DNA of 41,204 nt from a virus: positions 1-41,204 of the IMG/VR virus record IMGVR_UViG_3300043137_000100, one strand, 5' to 3'. The translations under genes were made by a program, and so were the position numbers. Below the pieces are notes generated by a model that did no database searches, was not told the origin of the DNA, and saw only the letters and a program-made list of their open reading frames with translations. This document shows, in pieces, positions 1 to 14,386 of this stretch (the first letter of the stretch is position 1; every line of letters begins with the position of its first letter).

Positions 1-157
1 CGTACTTGTTGATGGCTTTCTTGTAGACAGCCTTACACTTGTAGCGTCCACCGAGGGATGCTGCTTTAGAGTTTCTAAGTTTGATTTTGGTAGGGCCACA
101 GACTGAACAGATACCAGTCCGATTAGATTCGCTAATCTCCGAAAGACTGTGCTTCAT
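1..157 (-). CDS. HNH endonuclease, N-terminal fragment cut by the window edge
   Basis: This is the left-repeat copy of the first 52 codons of the HNH gene that is complete at 40581-40934. It includes the first CxxC pair (C17, C20). The gene is not broken biologically: it runs off base 1, and on a closed circle it would continue into the sequence before 40778. The two differences from the right-hand copy (positions 68 and 71) both fall in third codon positions. Confidence 0.85.
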   Translation of the reverse strand, partial: MKHSLSEISESNRTGICSVCGPTKIKLRNSKAASLGGRYKCKAVYKKAINKY

Positions 158-427
158 CCCGATCCGGTGGGCACGGTAGCTTTACTAGATTGCCACAGTT
201 TACGCAGGTTCCGTCTAAGAAATACCAGACTAGCTCGTAGTCATCAAAGGACACCATAGCGTTGAAGACCTGAGAGCCACACGGACAGACGTGGATGGGG
301 CCTAAGTCCCGCAAATCGGTTCCTGTGACCTGTGGTAACCCTTGTAAAGGGTTCCTGTGCCGCATTCTTGGCAGGGTTGGTAGACGGAGGGACAGCGTAA
401 CCTGACGGTTACCCGACTGCGCCCTTG
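1..427. repeat. Terminal direct repeat, left copy
   Basis: This stretch matches 40778-41204 over 427 bases with six substitutions (left-copy positions 68, 71, 180, 218, 262 and 300) and no indels. It carries the start of an HNH gene and most of a zinc-ribbon gene, both on the minus strand. The simplest reading is overlap of the ends of a circular or terminally redundant genome with a unit of about 40777 bp. The mismatches suggest the two ends came from closely related strains. Confidence 0.95.
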
Positions 428-458
428 AGGGGCGCCCTGTCTGTTTCTGCTCGCTCAC
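132..458 (-). CDS. Small zinc-ribbon protein, unknown function
   Basis: This is a 108-codon frame from a GTG at 458. The C-terminal half carries CPCG and CVNCG pairs around an aromatic segment (DDYELVWYFLDG), which looks like a four-Cys zinc ribbon. The N-terminal half is basic and less convincing. A TTG near 317, preceded by AGGA at about six bases, would give a shorter protein starting at the LRDLGPIHVCPCG segment. The stop overlaps the HNH start by 26 bases, so the two are probably co-transcribed. Comparing the two repeat copies, three of the four differences here are synonymous and one is Asn/Ser, which supports this frame at least below position 300. Between 302 and 454 another frame also encodes a CxxC element (see findings). 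The true N-terminus is uncertain. Confidence 0.7.
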   Translation of the reverse strand: MSEQKQTGRPSRAQSGNRQVTLSLRLPTLPRMRHRNPLQGLPQVTGTDLRDLGPIHVCPCGSQVFNAMVSFDDYELVWYFLDGTCVNCGNLVKLPCPPDRDEAQSFGD

Positions 459-524
459 GCTCGCAATTATAGCCAGACAGTTTCTAGTATGTGTCTTACG
501 ACACGCCGTGATAGGATGCCCAGT

Positions 525-857
525 ATGCCTCGCATATACTCAGTAAAAATCTTCGGTCAGCGATACAAGATCGATTACAAACATCACGACGAAGATAGTT
601 ACGGTGTGACTGACTCACAGGTCAATCGCATCAGTATGCGTCACAACCTACCCGAAGACAAGATGATTCACGTGCTGATGCACGAGGTAACGCACGCTGT
701 TATCCACGAGTCCTTACTTGCACAGCGTAAGCGCTTTGATGTGGAAGAAGTATGCGACCTAGTGGGATACCACATCGTAGATACTTTACAAGACAACCCG
801 GCTTTACTAGAATGGGTGTTCGGCATTAAGAAAACTACGGAGGAAGAAAACAAATGA
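525..857 (+). CDS. Putative zinc metallopeptidase (HExxH), 110 aa
   Basis: The protein has an HEVTH zinc-peptidase signature at residues 53-57 (H53, E54, H57) inside a predicted helix. Downstream acidic residues (VEEVCDLVG) could supply the third ligand. Size and motif resemble the small ImmA/IrrE or SprT-like peptidase domains often found near the start of phage early operons. The substrate is unknown. I chose the ATG at 525 because AGGA lies eight bases upstream; in-frame ATGs at 489 and 516 lack a well-placed ribosome site. The stop overlaps the next start as ATGA. It is the first gene of the plus-strand early block. Confidence 0.8.
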   Translation: MPRIYSVKIFGQRYKIDYKHHDEDSYGVTDSQVNRISMRHNLPEDKMIHVLMHEVTHAVIHESLLAQRKRFDVEEVCDLVGYHIVDTLQDNPALLEWVFGIKKTTEEENK

Positions 858-958
858 AAGAGTTGCTTATTATTGCAGTTAGCTTTACCTTTGGATTTAT
901 CGGGGCGTACGCTTTCGATACGTTCTTATCCTGGAGGGATGACCGTAAGTGGCGATAG
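854..958 (+). CDS. 34-aa single-span membrane microprotein
   Basis: ATGA overlap with the preceding gene sets the start. The sequence is one hydrophobic segment (about residues 4-25, LLIIAVSFTFGFIGAYAF) followed by a basic tail ending WRDDRKWR. That suggests an inner-membrane microprotein with a short charged tail. The next gene starts at 949 inside its last codons. Function is unknown. Operon coupling and clean composition favour a real gene. Confidence 0.6.
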   Translation: MKELLIIAVSFTFGFIGAYAFDTFLSWRDDRKWR

Positions 959-1908
959 AGGATCCAAAAGAATTACTGCTTCACGTACTGCACGCACAAG
1001 ATGCAAGTCGTGACCGCAGTTTACAGACAGAGGTAGGGCCATCAGAGATTGGTGGATGTAAGCGCAAGGTCTGGTACAGACTGAACGCACAGCCACATAC
1101 CAATGACAACCAATCTAAGTTGGCTGCCATTATGGGTACTGCAATTCACGCAGCTATCGAAGAGGCTATTGGTGCACTCGATCCTGAAGGCAAAGAATAC
1201 TTGGTTGAAACTGAGGTTGCTTTCGGTGATATGAAAGCACACGTTGACTTATTTGTACCTAGTACTGGTGCTGTGATTGACTGGAAGACTTCTAAGATTA
1301 AGAACCTTGGTTACTTCCCATCAAACCAACAGCGCTGGCAGGTACAGCTCTATGGTTACTTGCTATCTAAGAATGGCTATGAAGTTAAGACAGTTAACCT
1401 TGTAGCAATAGCACGTGACGGTGCAGAGAAAGACATCAAGGTACATACAGAACCTTACGATGAGACGATGGCACACGCTGCTTTGCTATGGCTTGAGAAT
1501 GTTAAGTCATCTACCACCTTGCCAGAGCCAGAGAAAGACGCTAGCTTTTGCAAGGACTACTGCCAGTACTACGATGCAACCGAACAGATGGGTTGCGGTG
1601 GATTAAAAAAAGAACGTATCGTCCTTAGCGAAGTCGTGATTGAGGACGTAGAAGTTGACAAGCACGCACTGCACTACTTACAGTTAGACAGCAAGATCAA
1701 AGAGCTTGAAAAGGAAAGAGAAACCCTAAAGGAATCTTTACTTGGTAGCACTGGTACCACTGCAAGTGGTATCGAAATCAGTTGGACAACAGTTAAAGGT
1801 CGTGAGACAGTTGACACTAAGGAAGTTGAGAAACTTCTAGGGTTTGTACCAAAGGTTGTTGGTAACGAATCTACAAGACTAAATATCAAATCTAATGGAG
1901 GAAAGTAA
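949..1908 (+). CDS. Cas4/RecB-like PD-(D/E)XK nuclease with Fe-S cysteines
   Basis: This 319-aa protein carries the PD-(D/E)XK nuclease signs of the RecB/Cas4 group: H67, D100 (HVDLF), D111-W-K113 (VIDWKTSK) and a QxxxY element (Q131, Y135). One cysteine lies near the N-terminus (C37, GGCKRKVWY) and three near the C-terminus (C201, C205, C216). That is the spacing of the 4Fe-4S cluster in AddB/Cas4-type nucleases. It would act as a DNA exonuclease in phage recombination or replication. The C-terminus (about 225-270) is a charged helix. The start is GTG with GGAGG eleven bases upstream. A small protein with a CKHG element and then WhiB follow directly. Confidence 0.85.
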   Translation: MAIEDPKELLLHVLHAQDASRDRSLQTEVGPSEIGGCKRKVWYRLNAQPHTNDNQSKLAAIMGTAIHAAIEEAIGALDPEGKEYLVETEVAFGDMKAHVDLFVPSTGAVIDWKTSKIKNLGYFPSNQQRWQVQLYGYLLSKNGYEVKTVNLVAIARDGAEKDIKVHTEPYDETMAHAALLWLENVKSSTTLPEPEKDASFCKDYCQYYDATEQMGCGGLKKERIVLSEVVIEDVEVDKHALHYLQLDSKIKELEKERETLKESLLGSTGTTASGIEISWTTVKGRETVDTKEVEKLLGFVPKVVGNESTRLNIKSNGGK

Positions 1909-2283
1909 ATGGCTGCAAACGAGAACACAAAGTTCCAGATTAACTACAAGTTAGCTGATGGAACTCTTATCAATCTTTATGCTTCAGATGTAAAGGATCT
2001 TGAGACAGGTCTTAACGACCTCGGTATGGTGGCAACACTTATCAAGGCAACAGGTGCTGACCTCGGTGGTGGCAACGCTACTGCTGCTGCAGTACAGAAC
2101 ATCCAAGCAGCATTCAACGCAACACCAGTTGCAGCACCAGCTGAACAGCCTGGTACTAAGAACTGTAAGCACGGAGTGATGGCCTTTAAGACAGGCACAT
2201 CAGCACGTGGACCTTGGCAGGGTTATATGTGTGCAGCACCAAAGGGTGCGCTAGACAAGTGCGAGACTATCTGGGTTCGTTAG
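1909..2283 (+). CDS. 124-aa protein with C-terminal Cys/His element, possible recombination partner
   Basis: The N-terminal 65 residues form a soluble alpha/beta-like segment (KFQINYKLADGTLINLY). An Ala/Pro-rich linker (about 66-83) follows, then a compact C-terminal region with C-KHG, a GPWQGYMC stretch and a final Cys, which may bind zinc. It starts immediately after the nuclease stop with AATGGAGGAAAGTAA upstream, so the two are translationally linked. Its position beside a RecB-like nuclease suggests a role in DNA binding or recombination, but I do not recognise the family with certainty. Confidence 0.75.
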   Translation: MAANENTKFQINYKLADGTLINLYASDVKDLETGLNDLGMVATLIKATGADLGGGNATAAAVQNIQAAFNATPVAAPAEQPGTKNCKHGVMAFKTGTSARGPWQGYMCAAPKGALDKCETIWVR

Positions 2284-2286
2284 TGT

Positions 2287-2553
2287 ATGCGCGAGCCGAG
2301 GTTCTATGAGAACCCCAGCTGCGCTGAAGTAGGAGGTGACTTTTGGTTTCCGGAAAAAGCCGACGGGTCAATGAATACTGTAGAGATGGTGATGGCAAAA
2401 TCTATTTGCCGTACCTGTCCACACAAAGCTGAATGTGCAGAGTGGGGAATTAAGAATGAAGTCTTTGGTATATGGGGCGGTCTAACACAGAAGGATCGTA
2501 GACCAATACAAAGGCAGTTAAAAATTACAATCAAAGGGGAGAGCGTTGCTTGA
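2287..2553 (+). CDS. WhiB-family transcriptional regulator
   Basis: This 88-aa protein has the four WhiB cysteines (C12, C41, C44, C50) that hold a 4Fe-4S cluster, plus the diagnostic GIWGG turn (61-65) and a basic tail (DRRPIQRQLK). WhiB proteins bind the sigma factor and modulate transcription. They are restricted to Actinobacteria and their phages, so this gene is the best host marker in the window. It starts four bases after the previous stop, and its stop overlaps the helicase start. It may adjust host transcription or control the early-late switch (inference). Confidence 0.95.
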   Translation: MREPRFYENPSCAEVGGDFWFPEKADGSMNTVEMVMAKSICRTCPHKAECAEWGIKNEVFGIWGGLTQKDRRPIQRQLKITIKGESVA

Positions 2554-3424
2554 TTTACAGCGTGCGTGGGGCACAGTCCTCACTAAAGCAACGCCTCTTC
2601 CTGATGTATGGAGTGCACTAGCAGATAAGCAGATTAAGTTCCGTAGGGGACAAGTCTGTATGGTTGCTGCAGCTCCTAACGCTGGTAAGTCTATGTTCGC
2701 ACTTATCTATGCAGTCAAGGCACAAGTACCTACGCTGTTCTTCTCAGCAGATACTGATACCACAACTGTAATGATGAGAGCAGCAGCCCACGTGAGTGGA
2801 CATAACCAAGTAAACGTTGAGCAGAATCTATCTGCCAACAATAATCACTACGATATTTCCTTTGATAAATTAAAACATATCAAGTGGGTCTTTGATTCTA
2901 GTCCGTCACTCGATGATATCGAGTTAGAAATAAAGGCGTACGTAGAGTTGTACGGCCAAGCCCCTGAGTTGATCATCATAGATAACCTTATGAATGTAGC
3001 TGCAGAGACAGACAACGAATGGGCTGGGCTTCGTGCAATTATGATGGAGCTTCACGATATGGCACGTAAGACTGAAGCCTGTGTACTGGTACTGCACCAC
3101 GTCTCTGAGCAGTCAGAGTACGGCAGTCCAACAGAACCACCAGCACGTCGTGCTATCCACGGTAAGGTCAGTCAGTTACCTGCACTGATCCTCACACTGG
3201 GATATAACCCGAACACAGCTGAGTTAAAGATTGCTGCGGTGAAGAACCGCTTTGGTCCACACGCAGCTGATGGTAAGGACTATGCGATACTGCTAGTGAA
3301 CTATGGTTCCTGTCAGATATCAGATAAGAATGCTTATGGAGCAATGTTCCAACACGATGCAAGACACGGGTATACTGGTAACTATATACCAGAGGATGAG
3401 TACGGACACGAGGTGGCAGTATGA
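2546..3424 (+). CDS. DnaB-like replicative helicase / RecA-fold ATPase
   Basis: This 292-aa protein has a Walker A motif (AAAPNAGKS, 41-49), an ADTDTTT segment after strand 2, a Walker B (LIIIDN, 142-147) and an LHHVSE sensor-like strand near 188. That is the core of DnaB-C or RepA-type hexameric helicases, with no separate N-terminal primase-binding domain. The start is TTG at 2546 with AGGGGAG just upstream, overlapping the WhiB stop by eight bases. Together with the downstream primase genes it would form the phage priming and unwinding machinery. No loader or DNA polymerase gene was found. Confidence 0.85.
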   Translation: MLDLQRAWGTVLTKATPLPDVWSALADKQIKFRRGQVCMVAAAPNAGKSMFALIYAVKAQVPTLFFSADTDTTTVMMRAAAHVSGHNQVNVEQNLSANNNHYDISFDKLKHIKWVFDSSPSLDDIELEIKAYVELYGQAPELIIIDNLMNVAAETDNEWAGLRAIMMELHDMARKTEACVLVLHHVSEQSEYGSPTEPPARRAIHGKVSQLPALILTLGYNPNTAELKIAAVKNRFGPHAADGKDYAILLVNYGSCQISDKNAYGAMFQHDARHGYTGNYIPEDEYGHEVAV

Positions 3425-5362: not shown

Positions 5363-5649
5363 TAGATCACCTTGCAGTCACAGGCTACCGAGCAGGTGGC
5401 GTGAGCACTGATGACCTAACATCTTTCATTGAATCCTTTGCATCCCTGCGTGCCAGTCGTGTACGTGGTGTAGGAGCAGACCAGTATGCACTTGCCAAAG
5501 GGCAGAAGTTTGAAACCTTTACTGTTACAGACACCATCAGGGAACTAATTGAAGAACTAGCTGATGCTAGTAACTACATAGACTTCCTTGCCATTAAGTT
5601 GCTGAACTTACAGCACACAATAGATGAGGCGCTACCTGACTGTGACTAA
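5341..5649 (+). CDS. All-helical protein, possibly MazG-like
   Basis: This 102-aa protein has a C-terminal helix with paired acidic residues (IRELIEELADASNYIDFL), similar to the metal-binding EExxD helices of MazG-like nucleotide pyrophosphohydrolases. The second half of the MazG signature is not obvious. ATG 5341 is chosen because the ORF upstream to 5260 lies in the body of another plausible small gene and AAGGAG precedes 5341. Role in nucleotide clean-up is possible but unproven. Confidence 0.65.
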   Translation: MSNPNPLVDHLAVTGYRAGGVSTDDLTSFIESFASLRASRVRGVGADQYALAKGQKFETFTVTDTIRELIEELADASNYIDFLAIKLLNLQHTIDEALPDCD

Positions 5650-6274
5650 CATACATCCATCCATCTTCGACATAGCACCTAGCGTTGCTAACACTGTATA
5701 CAAGCAATACAGGAACTTTGTTGAACGCGATGATGTAAAGCAGGAGTGTATGCAGTGGGCGCTAGCCCGTGCTGGGTACATCAATGATCAGTTAGGTGAA
5801 GAGAACGTTGAGCAACGCAGACACAACGAGCAAAAGATTGCTTGGCAGATGTCGCGTGCAGCCGAACGTTACTGTCGTAAAGAGAAGGCTACTAGGTCTG
5901 GCTATCAGCTAGGCGATGAGGCCTACTACCAGACTGCAATGCTTGGTCAGTTGCTACCCTTTGTTATTGCCTCCGTTGTAGATGGCACGGTTCTTGAGCA
6001 GGCACAAGAGATGATCAGAGATGGACAACCGAAGGGTTCGTCTAGTCCTGCCGAAGGTGGCAACCTACTGGCTATGCTATTAGATATTAAGAAGGGTTAC
6101 GAGAAGTTAGGTGAGGAAGACAAGCGCATACTTGCCCTTCGTTACCACGAGAACCTTACCCTTGTACAGATTGGTGAGGTACTAGAGTGCCACCACAGCA
6201 CAGCAGATCGCAGATGTAATCACGCTCTGCGTGAGCTGAATAATAAATTGGGTGGGCCAAGCCCGTACCAATGA
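5642..6274 (+). CDS. Sigma-70 region-4-like protein
   Basis: The last 60 residues read like sigma region 4: an EEDKRILALRYHENLTL segment, then QIGEVLECHHSTADRR as a helix-turn-helix, then a basic helix ending in ALRELNNKL. The N-terminal 100 residues contain a charged helical stretch (QRRHNEQKIAWQMSRAAERY) of unclear type. It may direct host polymerase to phage promoters or act as a packaging-type HTH protein. GTG 5642, overlapping the previous stop by eight bases, is preferred, with ATG 5624 as the alternative. Neither has a strong ribosome site. Confidence 0.75.
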   Translation: MTNIHPSIFDIAPSVANTVYKQYRNFVERDDVKQECMQWALARAGYINDQLGEENVEQRRHNEQKIAWQMSRAAERYCRKEKATRSGYQLGDEAYYQTAMLGQLLPFVIASVVDGTVLEQAQEMIRDGQPKGSSSPAEGGNLLAMLLDIKKGYEKLGEEDKRILALRYHENLTLVQIGEVLECHHSTADRRCNHALRELNNKLGGPSPYQ

Positions 6275-7707: not shown

Positions 7708-8211
7708 TCAGACTATATCACAGATATTGCCAATGACCCACTCAACTACAGGTACTGCAACTGCGTTGCCCATCTGCTTATATCTACTGCTATCTGACTG
7801 ACCAGCTGTCCAATCATCAGGGAATCCCTGCAATCGTTCACACTCTACTGGTGTTAAGCGGCGAACAGTTCCCTTGTTTAACAAGGTCTGATCATTCGAT
7901 GTTGCTATTGTCAATGACTTATCCTCACTAATCAAAGGGCCTTTGCCCCCACCTGGTTTACCTTCTCGCATACGCATTAGTGTTGCAACCATAGAAACGT
8001 TGTTCCCTCCTGTACCCATACGAGATGTAAGGGTATTCATAGTCTCGCCTTGTACTCTAGCTCCGTCGTGGTAGTGAGGGTGAAAGACGATGATAGTAGT
8101 ACGCACATCGCCATTATCAAATGCGTTCATAGTAGGCATAACCCCTCCCTCAATCCACGTTTCATAGTCTTCATCATTCTGTGCCCGCCTACTCTTCGTG
8201 AACCACAACAT
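7708..8211 (-). CDS. C5 cytosine methyltransferase, C-terminal part (after frameshift)
   Basis: This frame holds the end of a DNA C5-methyltransferase: the target-recognition region and then RRLTPVECERLQGFPDDWT and RYKQMGNAVAVPVVEW, which are conserved motifs IX and X. It lies one frame away from the upstream catalytic part, with about 22 bases of overlap (8189-8211). The listed ATG at 8211 is probably not a natural start, because the preceding MLWF residues have no ribosome site or family resemblance. Confidence 0.75.
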   Translation of the reverse strand: MLWFTKSRRAQNDEDYETWIEGGVMPTMNAFDNGDVRTTIIVFHPHYHDGARVQGETMNTLTSRMGTGGNNVSMVATLMRMREGKPGGGKGPLISEDKSLTIATSNDQTLLNKGTVRRLTPVECERLQGFPDDWTAGQSDSSRYKQMGNAVAVPVVEWVIGNICDIV

Positions 8212-8914
8212 TATCTTCAGGCCTTTTGTATGTAGTAGCTGTAAGGGTTGTTACTCCTGGGCTGTACTTAGCGAACCCTGTTTGACCAAAGCTTCTTGCA
8301 GTTCTTCCGGCAAGGTCTTCCCTCTGCGGTTGGCTCGACGTAGAATCCCGTCGCACGCTCTGCTGCTTAAATAGTATTTCTCCGGCGCTTCCGCTTGAAG
8401 CACGTCGGCAAGCGATGAAGACACGCTTGCGTCGCTGGGGTACTCCGAAGTACTGAGCATCAAGCACGCGCCAGGCGACACTATACCCGAGGTCTGCCAT
8501 CGTCCCGAGTACGACAGCAAAGTCTGCTCCGTTGTTAGAGGAAAGGAGACCAGGTACATTTTCGAGGATTGCGTACTCTGTTTGCGTTTCTTCCACAATT
8601 CTTGCAATCTCCCAGAATAATCCGCTTCGTGCGCCAGCAAGACCAGCTCTTTTGCCAGCGACTGACAGATCTTGGCAGGGAAATCCTCCTGTAATAATTC
8701 CTCTGCTTGGTTCAAATCCTGCTCCAATTAAATCACTCCCCTTTACTGTAGTTACATCATCGAATATCTTGCTATTAGGAAACCGGTGTGCCAATACATC
8801 TTGACACTTCTTATCTATCTCAACTGAAGCTACAACATCTACGCCGTTGCGCTCCATCGCTAGGTCAAAGCCACCCACTCCTGCGAATAGGGATACGCCT
8901 GTTAGTTTACTCAT
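8189..8914 (-). CDS. C5 cytosine methyltransferase, N-terminal catalytic part
   Basis: This part holds SAM-binding motif I (SLFAGVGGFDLAM, about 8-20), the catalytic loop GGFPCQDLS with C80, the ENVPG motif near 119, and QRRKRVFI (motif VIII). These define DNA (cytosine-5) methyltransferases, which methylate DNA to evade host restriction. The frame stops at 8189 after NVVVHEE, yet the missing motifs IX-X continue in the next frame from about 8205, so a one-base insertion or +1 shift splits the gene. ATG 8914 is favoured: GAGGG lies eight bases upstream and it overlaps the transglycosylase stop as ATGA. Confidence 0.85.
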   Translation of the reverse strand: MSKLTGVSLFAGVGGFDLAMERNGVDVVASVEIDKKCQDVLAHRFPNSKIFDDVTTVKGSDLIGAGFEPSRGIITGGFPCQDLSVAGKRAGLAGARSGLFWEIARIVEETQTEYAILENVPGLLSSNNGADFAVVLGTMADLGYSVAWRVLDAQYFGVPQRRKRVFIACRRASSGSAGEILFKQQSVRRDSTSSQPQREDLAGRTARSFGQTGFAKYSPGVTTLTATTYKRPEDNVVVHEE

Positions 8915-9188
8915 CAGTACCACCCTCTACCTCTGTGGTGGGCAAGAGCGCGGCACGCAGATCCTCGATAGCGGTGTTCAAGGTATCGTAGACCGTGAAG
9001 GATTTGAAGTTCAGGTTGTCCACTACGCTCTCTAAGGAGCTGAGCAATTCCATAAGCCGAACTTCGTTTGTTGTCGGCAAGGTGGTCAAACCTGCTTTCA
9101 CTGGTCCATAGGGTGACAAGGCACGTAACTTCTTTTCTCGAATATCCGAGAGCGCGACTATATTCTCTTGTGATTCGTTTATTCTCAC
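8907..9188 (-). CDS. 93-aa acidic helical protein overlapping a transglycosylase frame
   Basis: GTG at 9188 overlaps the stop of the gene before it (GTGA) and follows GGAGGAGAAGC, a strong ribosome site. The product has a basic first third and an acidic, leucine-rich helical remainder (RLMELLSSLESVVDNLNF, TLNTAIEDLRAALLP). It covers nearly all of 8914-9188, which also encodes the transglycosylase in another frame. Its stop overlaps the methyltransferase start by eight bases. I do not recognise a family. It could be a fortuitous open frame, but its start signals fit this operon well. Confidence 0.5.
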   Translation of the reverse strand: MRINESQENIVALSDIREKKLRALSPYGPVKAGLTTLPTTNEVRLMELLSSLESVVDNLNFKSFTVYDTLNTAIEDLRAALLPTTEVEGGTDE

Positions 9189-11794: not shown

Positions 11795-11932
11795 GACCAT
11801 TTGAAAGATTCTTTTTGGTCGTGTCGAAGCGGGTCCACTTGTTACTCGCCGGTAAGTTACTGATCTTTTTTCCTGGTAACTTGAGTGTTTCCTGAGAGTT
11901 GCCAGAGCTGAAACGGCAGGGCAATAGATAGA

Positions 11933-11971
11933 CAGATGGGCGCAGATTGTAAACGGTTTACAGATTGGGCG
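11933..11971. repeat. CAGAT repeats around a TGTAAAC palindrome
   Basis: CAGATGGGCG (11933), CAGATTG (11943) and CAGATTGGGCG (11961) repeat within 39 bases. Between them TGTAAAC and GTTTACA form an inverted repeat around a central G (11948-11962). Short direct repeats next to a palindrome and DnaA boxes resemble replication iterons or operator arrays. Confidence 0.55.
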
Positions 11972-12032
11972 AAGATGTTTAAGTCTTAGGGTCTGCCGTA
12001 GGGTTAGCCATCCCCGCAAAAAACTGCAAAAG

Positions 12033-12073
12033 TTATCCACAGCCTGTGGACAGGGGGGCGGGGGTTATCCACA
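12033..12073. promoter_or_regulatory. DnaA-box cluster, putative replication origin
   Basis: TTATCCACA occurs at 12033-12041 and again at 12065-12073, both perfect consensus DnaA boxes. Between them TGTGGACAG (12045-12053) is the same box inverted with two mismatches. TCCACAG and CTGTGGA form a 7-bp inverted repeat with one central base. A host DnaA protein could bind here. An AT-rich region follows from about 12120. Confidence 0.7.
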
Positions 12074-12152
12074 GGGCGCAGAACCCGAACCGGAGGTGTT
12101 AAACGGCGAGCGGAGGTAGTGTTATGTACCCCAGAAAAATATATTTGCTAAA

Positions 12153-12182
12153 GTGAAAGTGGGGCTGACCTGCAGTTATACT
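12153..12182 (+). promoter_or_regulatory. Rightward promoter candidate P1
   Basis: GTGAAA (12153-12158) and TATACT (12177-12182) are separated by 18 bases. Transcription would begin near 12189 and run through four hairpins toward terminase. The layout is close to that of P2 at 12391-12420. Confidence 0.45.
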
Positions 12183-12211
12183 GTATGTGTTCCAACTCAC
12201 AGAAGTAAAAA

Positions 12212-12234
12212 CGCGAAACGACTTAAATTTCGCG
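12212..12234 (+). other. Hairpin CGCGAAA/TTTCGCG
   Basis: A perfect seven-base stem (12212-12218 with 12228-12234) encloses CGACTTAAA. It would be the first RNA hairpin of a transcript from P1 and would start about 23 bases from its 5' end. It could protect the transcript, or be a DNA site. Confidence 0.5.
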
Positions 12235-12280
12235 CCTTATATATAGTAGGGGAGTAAAGCGGGGAAGAGTCCGGTTTACG

Positions 12281-12328
12281 ACCCGTACGCTACGGGTGAA
12301 ACCCTTCGCGTAGCCCCCTAGGGCGAAG
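12281..12328 (+). other. Mutually exclusive hairpins (switch-like RNA element)
   Basis: Hairpin A pairs ACCCGTA (12281-12287) with TACGGGT (12291-12297). Alternative B pairs GCTACG (12289-12294) with CGTAGC (12309-12314), with GGT/ACC inside. Hairpin C pairs CTTCGC (12304-12309) with GCGAAG (12323-12328), with TAG/CTA inside. A excludes B, and B overlaps one side of C. No known riboswitch core or tRNA was recognised. Confidence 0.5.
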
Positions 12329-12348
12329 CGAGCAGTACCACTAAATGC

Positions 12349-12385
12349 GGGATAGGTCTATCTAAATTTAGATCACTAGTATCCC
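12349..12385 (+). other. Nested inverted repeat
   Basis: GGGATA (12349-12354) pairs with TATCCC (12380-12385), and inside it ATCTAAATTTAGAT (12360-12373) is a perfect palindrome. As RNA it would be a two-part hairpin. As DNA the central 14 bases could be a dimeric protein site just upstream of P2. Confidence 0.5.
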
Positions 12386-12390
12386 AGTAT

Positions 12391-12420
12391 GTGAGACAGA
12401 TAGCCCAGTAAAATTATACA
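12391..12420 (+). promoter_or_regulatory. Rightward promoter candidate P2
   Basis: GTGAGA (12391-12396), an 18-base spacer and TATACA (12415-12420) repeat the arrangement of P1. Transcription would begin near 12427 and read into terminase only if it passes the terminator at 12464-12514. Confidence 0.45.
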
Positions 12421-12463
12421 ATCCCTAGTATAAAAGAAGAGCCATCACGGCCGATTTTTAGAA

Positions 12464-12514
12464 GCCCAAGAGAGATCCCTAGCCACGGCTAAATCGCTTG
12501 GGCCTACATTTTTT
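12464..12514 (+). terminator. Rho-independent terminator/attenuator just before terminase
   Basis: GCCCAAG (12464-12470) pairs with CTTGGGC (12497-12503), with TAGCC/GGCTA as an inner stem, and a T6 run ends at 12514. The terminase GTG is only 13 bases farther on, so this sits in the leader of the late operon. It could end a short RNA from P1 or P2, or be an attenuator that must be passed for late expression. Confidence 0.7.
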
Positions 12515-12526
12515 AGGGAGCAACAC

Positions 12527-14386
12527 GTGGCAGAGAATTCAGCAGATATAGCCAAGAGGATTATCCTCGGCTGCGTCGCAGAAGGTATGACCATCGACGC
12601 CGCTTGCGGTTCCGCCGGTAAGTCGATGAAGACGTATGAGTACTACCGTCGCACCGATAAGGTTTTTGCAGACAAGGTAGATCGAACCCGTCTCGGCCTT
12701 AAGGACAAGCAGTTCCAAGGTGGAGACGTTCACGATATTGACTTCGTGGAGTTCCGCCAGAAGTTTCTACACTCCAAGACTTTTCCACATCAGGTAAACC
12801 TAATAGATGTGATTGAAGGACGTGAGCCTAGCTGGCTCCATCCCAGTATGAAGTTTGAACCGGGCCTAGCGGCAAACCGTGTTCTCATTAACATTCCGCC
12901 AAACCACGCCAAGTCGATTACGGTCACGGTCGACTACGTCACGTGGAAGGTAGCTCAGAACCCCAACTTCCGAGTTCTGATTGTATCCCAGACGCAGCAG
13001 CTAGCTGCCGACTTTCTCTACGCCATCAAGCAAAGACTAACGCATCCTATGTATGCAGACCTCCAAAGTGCTTATGCTGCTGGTGTAGGGTTTAACTCTA
13101 AGACCGCTTCCTGGCAGGCAACCCGCGTCACCTTCGGTGATGAGCTTCGTGAGTCTAGCGAAAAGGATCCGAACATCGAGGCCGTCGGTATCGGCGGTCA
13201 GATTTACGGCAAGCGTGCCGATATGATTATTGTCGATGACGCGGTCACTTTAAAGAACGCTAACGAGTTTGAGAAGCAGATCCGTTGGTTAACCCAGGAC
13301 GTACGCTCTCGTCTTAACCCTACCGGTAAGCTAATTGTTATTGGTACCCGTGTAGCCTCGGTTGACCTATACCGCGAGCTTCGCTCAGAGGACCGCTACC
13401 CAGGCGGTCAGGTTCCTTGGAAGTATCTGGCGATGCCAGCCCTTCTTGAAATTAACGAAGACCCCGACAAGTGGGTTACCTTATGGCCACACTCCGATGC
13501 TCCATTCGATGGGCAAGAGGAAGCTGATAAGAACGAAGACGGTCTATATCCTAGATGGTCTGGTCGTAACTTATATAACGAACGTCAAGCTATGGATGCT
13601 TCAACCTGGGCGCTGGTCTACCAGCAACAGGATGTAAGCGAGAACGCGGCGTTTGACCCAGTATGTGTTCGTGGCTCTATGGACGGAATGCGTAAAGCAG
13701 GACGTCTAGAGATGGGACACCCAGGTCATCCTAAAGACTTAACAGGCTTCAGCTTTATCTGCGGTATGGATCCGGCCATTGTCGGAGATACGGCAGCTGT
13801 CTGTTATGCCATTGACCGTAATACTTCTAAGCGCTACATCGTAGACGTTATGAAAATTACGCGTCCGTCCCCTCAGCAGATCCGCGACATCATTATTAAC
13901 TGGACCCAGCTTTACAGTCCATCCGAGTGGATTATTGAGAAGAACGCATTCCAGGCATTCCTTACACAGGATGAAGGAATCCGTATGTTCTTGGCAGGAC
14001 GCGGTGTAGTTCTTAAGGAACACCATACCGGTTCTAATAAGTGGGACTCTGGTTTCGGTGTGGCATCTATGGCCACCCTCTTTGGTACTAAGCAGGTAGA
14101 TGGTAAGCACCATCGAGATAACTTGATACACCTACCTAGTGATCAGACAGAGAACATCAAGGCTCTAGTAGAGCAGTTGATTACGTGGACGCCAACAACT
14201 AAAGGTAAGACCGATATTGTGATGGCGCTCTGGTTCTGTGAGATCCGAGCACGTGAGATGCTCAACTACGGCCAGTACGCAACGCATCACCTTAAGAATC
14301 CTTTCCTCTCCAGGGCGGAGTTAGGAAAGCGAGTAGTCATCAATATAGATGAAGCACTCGCACAACAGAATCAAACATTCGTCTAG
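12527..14386 (+). CDS. Large terminase with TerS-like N-terminal domain
   Basis: The ATPase has a degenerate Walker A (PPNHAKS, 124-130), Walker B (IIVDD, about 234-238) and a C-terminal RNase H-like nuclease with GMDPAIVGD (about 413) and WIIEKNAF (about 468). It translocates and cuts DNA into the capsid. The first 60 residues (AKRIILGCVAEGMTIDAACG, then TYEYYRR and VDRTRLGL) look like the helix-turn-helix domain of small terminases, and no separate TerS gene is seen nearby, so the two functions may be fused. GTG start with AGGGAG seven bases upstream. 619 aa is long for TerL (commonly 450-550). Confidence 0.9.
   Translation: MAENSADIAKRIILGCVAEGMTIDAACGSAGKSMKTYEYYRRTDKVFADKVDRTRLGLKDKQFQGGDVHDIDFVEFRQKFLHSKTFPHQVNLIDVIEGREPSWLHPSMKFEPGLAANRVLINIPPNHAKSITVTVDYVTWKVAQNPNFRVLIVSQTQQLAADFLYAIKQRLTHPMYADLQSAYAAGVGFNSKTASWQATRVTFGDELRESSEKDPNIEAVGIGGQIYGKRADMIIVDDAVTLKNANEFEKQIRWLTQDVRSRLNPTGKLIVIGTRVASVDLYRELRSEDRYPGGQVPWKYLAMPALLEINEDPDKWVTLWPHSDAPFDGQEEADKNEDGLYPRWSGRNLYNERQAMDASTWALVYQQQDVSENAAFDPVCVRGSMDGMRKAGRLEMGHPGHPKDLTGFSFICGMDPAIVGDTAAVCYAIDRNTSKRYIVDVMKITRPSPQQIRDIIINWTQLYSPSEWIIEKNAFQAFLTQDEGIRMFLAGRGVVLKEHHTGSNKWDSGFGVASMATLFGTKQVDGKHHRDNLIHLPSDQTENIKALVEQLITWTPTTKGKTDIVMALWFCEIRAREMLNYGQYATHHLKNPFLSRAELGKRVVINIDEALAQQNQTFV

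Follow-up and report, generated by a model that had tools for sequence, protein, structure and literature searches.

A conserved folded RNA upstream of the large terminase gene in freshwater actinobacterial phages

In phage lambda, Q antitermination involves the pR'-tR' leader (6S RNA), a short RNA between the late promoter and the first late genes. In the early operons of coliphage HK022, the put RNA, ~70 nt long, forms two stem-loops that bind the beta' zinc-binding domain, and it acts on distant terminators (PMC9378689); antitermination proceeds in cis with no dedicated protein. A far-left non-coding RNA, nc_1, is the most expressed late feature of Rhodococcus phage WC1, and far-left ncRNAs are also reported at the left ends of D29 and Kampy (PMC10986025). 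Late transcription in D29 starts ~230 bp from the left end (PMC5712189). Thus, given the late ncRNA of WC1 and the late start of D29, an RNA at such a place is not without precedent.

The locus described here lies in front of the large terminase gene (terL) of a freshwater actinobacterial phage represented by a single virus record, whose 41,204 nucleotides are referred to as the window. Its cultured relatives have as hosts the freshwater Ca. Nanopelagicales, which are very abundant (PMC10202952). Similar to HK022 put, a folded RNA is found just downstream of a probable phage promoter heading a long operon, an analogy of working drawn from description; put has two stem-loops, whereas the fold of the window RNA differs. 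Similar to WC1 nc_1 and the D29 late region, a non-coding stretch heads late actinophage genes, a likeness of position to a window known from its sequence. The late start of D29 also lies at a similar distance from the genome end, if the candidate cos site described below is right, and the model of the window RNA (R1) finds no match in D29 positions 1-3000.

The gap before terL and its relatives

Leftward ORFs stop near 11.9 kb and terL starts with the GTG at 12527; therefore, 11930-12526 is a divergent non-coding gap. The first-pass annotation of this region had likewise seen no credible ORF here and had placed the terL start at the same GTG. The gap and the gene behind it contain the following features, in window coordinates:

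11992-12016, no strand: conserved block TCTGCCGTAGGGTTAGCCATCCCCG (family GTGCCGnnnGGTA-GTnnGCCC), a candidate virion end (cos) from contig-end clustering
12033-12041 and 12065-12073, + strand: two perfect DnaA boxes (TTATCCACA), with similar boxes in several, not all, relatives
12137-12158, + strand: block a (AAATATATTTGCTAAAGTGAAA), a conserved DNA element present once in the window and containing the -35 of the first-pass annotation
12186-12201, no strand: CRP/GlxR-like site TGTGTTCCAACTCACA (family TGTGA-N6-TCACA), with one mismatch in the window
12212-12234, no strand: palindrome CGCGAAA-N9-TTTCGCG over the -35 region, covarying between relatives
12242-12247, + strand: probable -10 box TATAGT, part of CCTTATATATAGTAGGGG (12235-12252), with transcription expected to start at ~12249-12256
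12242-12378, + strand: conserved folded RNA matching model R1 (cmsearch 47.7 bits, E 5.1e-10; window outside the training set)
12254-12279, + strand: helix P1, GUAAA (12254-12258) with UUUAC (12275-12279), GA/GA outside (12252-12253, 12280-12281)
12305-12332, + strand: helix P3, UUCGC (12305-12309) with GCGAG (12328-12332), inner hairpin GCCC (12313-12316), loop CCUA, GGGC (12321-12324)
12464-12514, + strand: non-canonical hairpin plus T6, a sporadic insertion, arms 12464-12473 and 12494-12503, T6 12509-12514
12527-14386, + strand: terL, large terminase subunit (phrog_38, E 8e-63; Terminase_6C)

At least 599 terL relatives are present in viral contigs. Eighty loci were taken from these, and the 71 sequences with enough upstream DNA, the window included, were aligned; the gap before terL is conserved in nearly all of them. 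A 19-base pattern drawn from the best-conserved part recovers at least 119 stretches, some already in the set, and terL follows wherever the contig continues, mostly at 196-430 nt. A second, independent pattern, drawn from the 3' half, adds 51 further loci, 50 of which have terL 106-630 nt downstream; the contig of the remaining locus holds just 214 bases downstream. In practically all contigs of sufficient length, the folded RNA precedes a terL of this family. Two pattern matches without terL, from a scan of genome contigs, were taken as chance. One 40683-base contig (L028/L085) carries the element inverted at its end, facing away from terL, which is probably an assembly artefact.

Other genes of the window phage were also noted. 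The N-terminus of TerL (12527-12700) reads like a small-terminase helix-turn-helix, which suggests a fused small terminase, and a separate small terminase was not recognised in any of the three ORFs that separate terL from portal. Two leftward ORFs that overlap (7708-8211 and 8189-8923, - strand) share the matches to DNA methyltransferase; the gene is split or frameshifted.

Structure and conservation of the RNA

Model R1 was built from 21 relatives (training set A3) with the window left out, and it matches 56 of 58 test loci; among the 58 are L081, which is the locus of the window itself, and one of the training sequences. Among the 21 sequences, 93.2% of pair cells pair, compared with 87.9% after shuffling and 25-47% in slid versions, and covariation is 0.165 versus 0.085 shuffled. 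In the 56 sequences, both-side changes affect 18 of the 23 pairs, covariation reaches 0.313 (0.121 in shuffles) and 151 cells are double-changed (49 shuffled), as counted on a structure-fitted alignment (A4) with a statistic that ignores phylogeny. The native halves of helix P1, helix P3 and the palindrome outfold all 300 permutations, by a statistic that ignores relatedness. Compensatory changes in the RNA exceed both the shuffled and the slid controls. G-U pairs outnumber A-C pairs by 43 to 17, and the + strand is therefore indicated for the RNA. Folding of the wider stretch 12189-12526 is also beyond chance, since its z score is -3.9 and none of 100 shuffles folds as well; the first-pass annotation had described several hairpins here, and they are present. 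Its suggestion of a candidate phage RNA is supported by the covariance search that it had called for, and the element is almost certainly a real conserved RNA, found in more than 100 related phages.

Helix P1 takes the form GYAAARC/GYUUURC in relatives, rarely GGAAA/UUUCC or GUAGAC/GUCUAC, and the second stem, helix P3, encloses GNCC-CCUA-GGNC. A symmetric GA/GA borders both helices in most relatives, while helix P3 of the window has GUA/GAA instead. The RNA of most relatives also contains a constant CUUACCCCUC, represented in the window by GUACCACUAA, and further hairpins accompany the two helices downstream of the promoter core. If the transcript starts near 12254, the GGG at 12249-12251 is promoter DNA outside the RNA; its pairing with CCC shows little covariation.

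Two other routes to the structure were set aside. RNAalifold, applied to all 106 sequences as aligned by MAFFT, collapsed because the P1-P2 segment differs in type between clades, and was replaced by a segment-wise analysis. A first anchor-based count gave no excess for helix P3, because collapsing to unique arms weighted mis-anchored outliers; arm listing and the half-swap test were used instead.

No match was obtained in Rfam 15, either at the gathering score or at E values up to 5 on 11900-12600, nor by BLASTN of the region against phage records, and the element is not described in the literature on phage RNAs near terminase. The RNA family and its structure thus appear to be new, as far as the Rfam and literature searches reach.

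Promoter, upstream DNA and the junction with terL

The conserved promoter core is CCTTATATATAGT-AGGGG, with one copy in the window. The TGTGA-N6-TCACA site stands 39/40 bp from the core in 85 sequences, 54/55 bp in 46 and 34 bp in three, so that 131 of 134 sequences have it at one of the first two distances. Across relatives, this site keeps its 16-bp length but not always its symmetry, as would suit an operator of the CRP/FNR family more than a hairpin in RNA; we infer such an operator, and the CRP/GlxR-like label follows the GlxR consensus. Block a lies 70-141 bp from the core among relatives. The phage also encodes a sigma-like factor (5624-6274, + strand; Sigma70_r4 E 2.8e-6, sigma-factor PHROGs down to 1.2e-11) and a WhiB protein (2287-2553, + strand), which are possible regulators of the late promoter.

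The first-pass annotation had placed a promoter, P1, at 12153-12182. Its hexamers, GTGAAA-18-TATACT (9/12), are present, and P1 is one of five sites that a promoter scan reports in 3 kb, where 3.3 +/- 1.9 are expected by chance. However, P1 is not a conserved promoter, because each hexamer belongs to a different conserved block and the spacing of the two blocks changes from relative to relative; the pair is a coincidence of this genome. The transcript of ~325 nt proposed from it, running from ~12189 to 12514, gives way to one that would begin at ~12249-12256 from the conserved promoter, and the terminator assigned to its end is sporadic.

Further upstream, the contig ends of relatives cluster 236-277 bp before the promoter core (eight in 41 bp), and three contigs begin at one identical alignable base. 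The block at 11992-12016 may be a cos site, but the contig-end evidence is no more than suggestive: conserved sequence can break assemblies, the ends are scattered in a second clade, and one near-complete contig repeats its own end at 94% identity. The stretch with the DnaA boxes is repeat-rich, other relatives having TAGACA..TGTCTA inverted repeats there instead, and it is a possible replication origin.

Parts of this layout recur in phages of other groups. The Streptomyces BI phages (Beephvirinae: WRightOn, Manuel, FlowerPower) have two CRP-like sites, where the window has one, and a palindrome before terL. They carry TATATATATA(A/C)T-GGGG or TATATATATAAT-GGGG before terL near the left genome end, with TATAAT-GGGG placed as the window's -10, and a folded leader of ~250 nt before terL that is 43% identical to the window's. 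WRightOn has an annotated sigma-K factor, and the window phage a sigma-like protein. The Planktophila phages E7 and F5 (PMC10202952), whose terL is 47% identical to the window's, and their relatives have block a or a remnant of it and a palindrome with a TATCTTATATAG promoter-like core. Model R1 has no significant match in the left ends of either the Streptomyces BI or the Planktophila phages. In the Planktophila-phage clade (L206-L285), a second, unrelated conserved folded leader with TTATGCCGTT occupies the 350 nt before terL. The position of a leader is conserved more widely than this RNA.

On the 3' side of the RNA, the first-pass annotation had proposed a terminator at 12464-12514. The arms and the T6 are present, but the structure is non-canonical: a terminator scan does not report it, because five bases (CTACA) part the stem from the T-run, and its fold (z -1.5) is equalled by 18 of 200 shuffles. 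Among the nine loci compared, the hairpin recurs solely in L004, where the inner stem is compensated; L002 and L003, with terL proteins 96-97% identical, are without it. Across the RNA-terL interval of 99 relatives, the sense strand has a canonical terminator in 7 and the antisense strand in 12. A conserved terminator behind the RNA is absent and is not part of the conserved design.

Genes do occur in this interval. The RNA-terL junction is an apparent insertion hot spot, holding a tRNA-Arg (ACG) in five loci (L040, L041, L042, L052, L114) and, on the terL strand and as read from sequence, an HNH-like ORF in L132 and small basic-protein ORFs in L133, L101, L054, L016 and L177. A tRNA-Trp is present in the gap before terL in L247, of the Planktophila-phage clade. 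As tRNA and coding genes stand between RNA and terL, transcription would be expected to read through from the RNA into terL. The RNA is unchanged where a tRNA, an HNH-like or a basic ORF comes first, and thus it is not tied to the terL ribosome site.

Possible functions

The RNA most likely heads the late-gene transcript. The best explanation, put forward tentatively and by analogy, is that the late operon has a structured leader at its 5' end which acts in cis on the polymerase, put-like in principle. The promoter with its -10 at 12242-12247, backed by the palindrome and the CRP/GlxR-like site, would start a transcript at ~12249-12256, and the first 130-200 nt would fold into the conserved RNA. 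Transcription would continue past it into terL and the virion genes; through a cis effect on the polymerase during elongation (antitermination or anti-pausing, as in HK022 put), the RNA would let the long late operon be transcribed efficiently. The relatives have a conserved promoter core, a covarying RNA in a fixed place and genes able to sit behind it; we infer the start site, late timing, read-through and action on the polymerase. Such a cis leader is consistent with a covarying RNA on the sense strand, the promoter core directly in front, and a place always upstream of the terL operon with no conserved terminator behind. The same promoter layout in the Streptomyces BI phages and, by reading, in the Planktophila phages also supports it. 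Against it, phages with related terL have different leaders, and the proposed function is argued from position.

The main rival, itself rather unlikely, is a stable ncRNA acting in trans, derived from the late transcript by processing or termination and comparable to WC1 nc_1. Strong structure and covariation would suit it, as would the far-left ncRNAs of WC1, D29 and Kampy (PMC10986025), and tRNAs inserted behind the RNA would permit cleavage from the mRNA. However, neither a terminator nor a 3' end is conserved, and the RNA is never found apart from the terL operon. It is improbable that the RNA is a leader for late-mRNA stability or for translational control of the first gene: its 5' position and strong stems would fit, but the first gene varies (HNH-like, basic protein, tRNA), and the start codon lies anywhere from ~200 to 800 nt away.

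A DNA element only, in which operators, a replication origin or a cos/packaging signal have inverted repeats that mimic RNA stems, is highly unlikely. The CRP-like site, palindrome, DnaA boxes and nearby contig ends are compatible with it, yet the GA/GA interruptions make the arms of helices P1 and P3 non-palindromic as DNA, and the G-U excess and the 18 of 23 covarying pairs speak for RNA. A packaging RNA working with TerL, as the phi29 pRNA does, has slighter prospects still; linkage to terL in nearly every contig, a place possibly near the genome end and the lack of a recognised separate small terminase in the three terL-portal ORFs would agree with it, but TerL itself begins with what reads as a small-terminase helix-turn-helix, and related terL genes have unrelated leaders.

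Least probable is the late attenuator suggested in the first-pass annotation, a terminator at 12464-12514 that would stop late transcription until it is overcome, in the manner of lambda tR'. A hairpin with T6 is there and recurs, compensated, in L004. The attenuator reading is weakened, however, because same-strand tRNA or coding genes follow the RNA in several relatives and no terminator is conserved; the spacing is non-canonical, near relatives lack the hairpin, and canonical terminators are no commoner on the sense than on the antisense strand. Lambda tR' is defined by its terminator, whereas the window family has no conserved intrinsic terminator in the stretch from the late promoter to the first late gene.

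It is conceivable, if on the whole somewhat doubtful, that the late-transcription or packaging machinery of the phage has in this RNA a functional partner of a sort new to actinobacterial phages, either a put-like, protein-free polymerase modifier or a terminase partner. To our knowledge, RNA-based control of late transcription, or a packaging RNA, would be new for these phages. Relatives of the phage are common in viral contigs, and culturable Streptomyces phages with a similar promoter plan provide a laboratory model. Compact, covarying and fixed in place where the late operon begins, this RNA represents a new RNA family whose function is directly testable.
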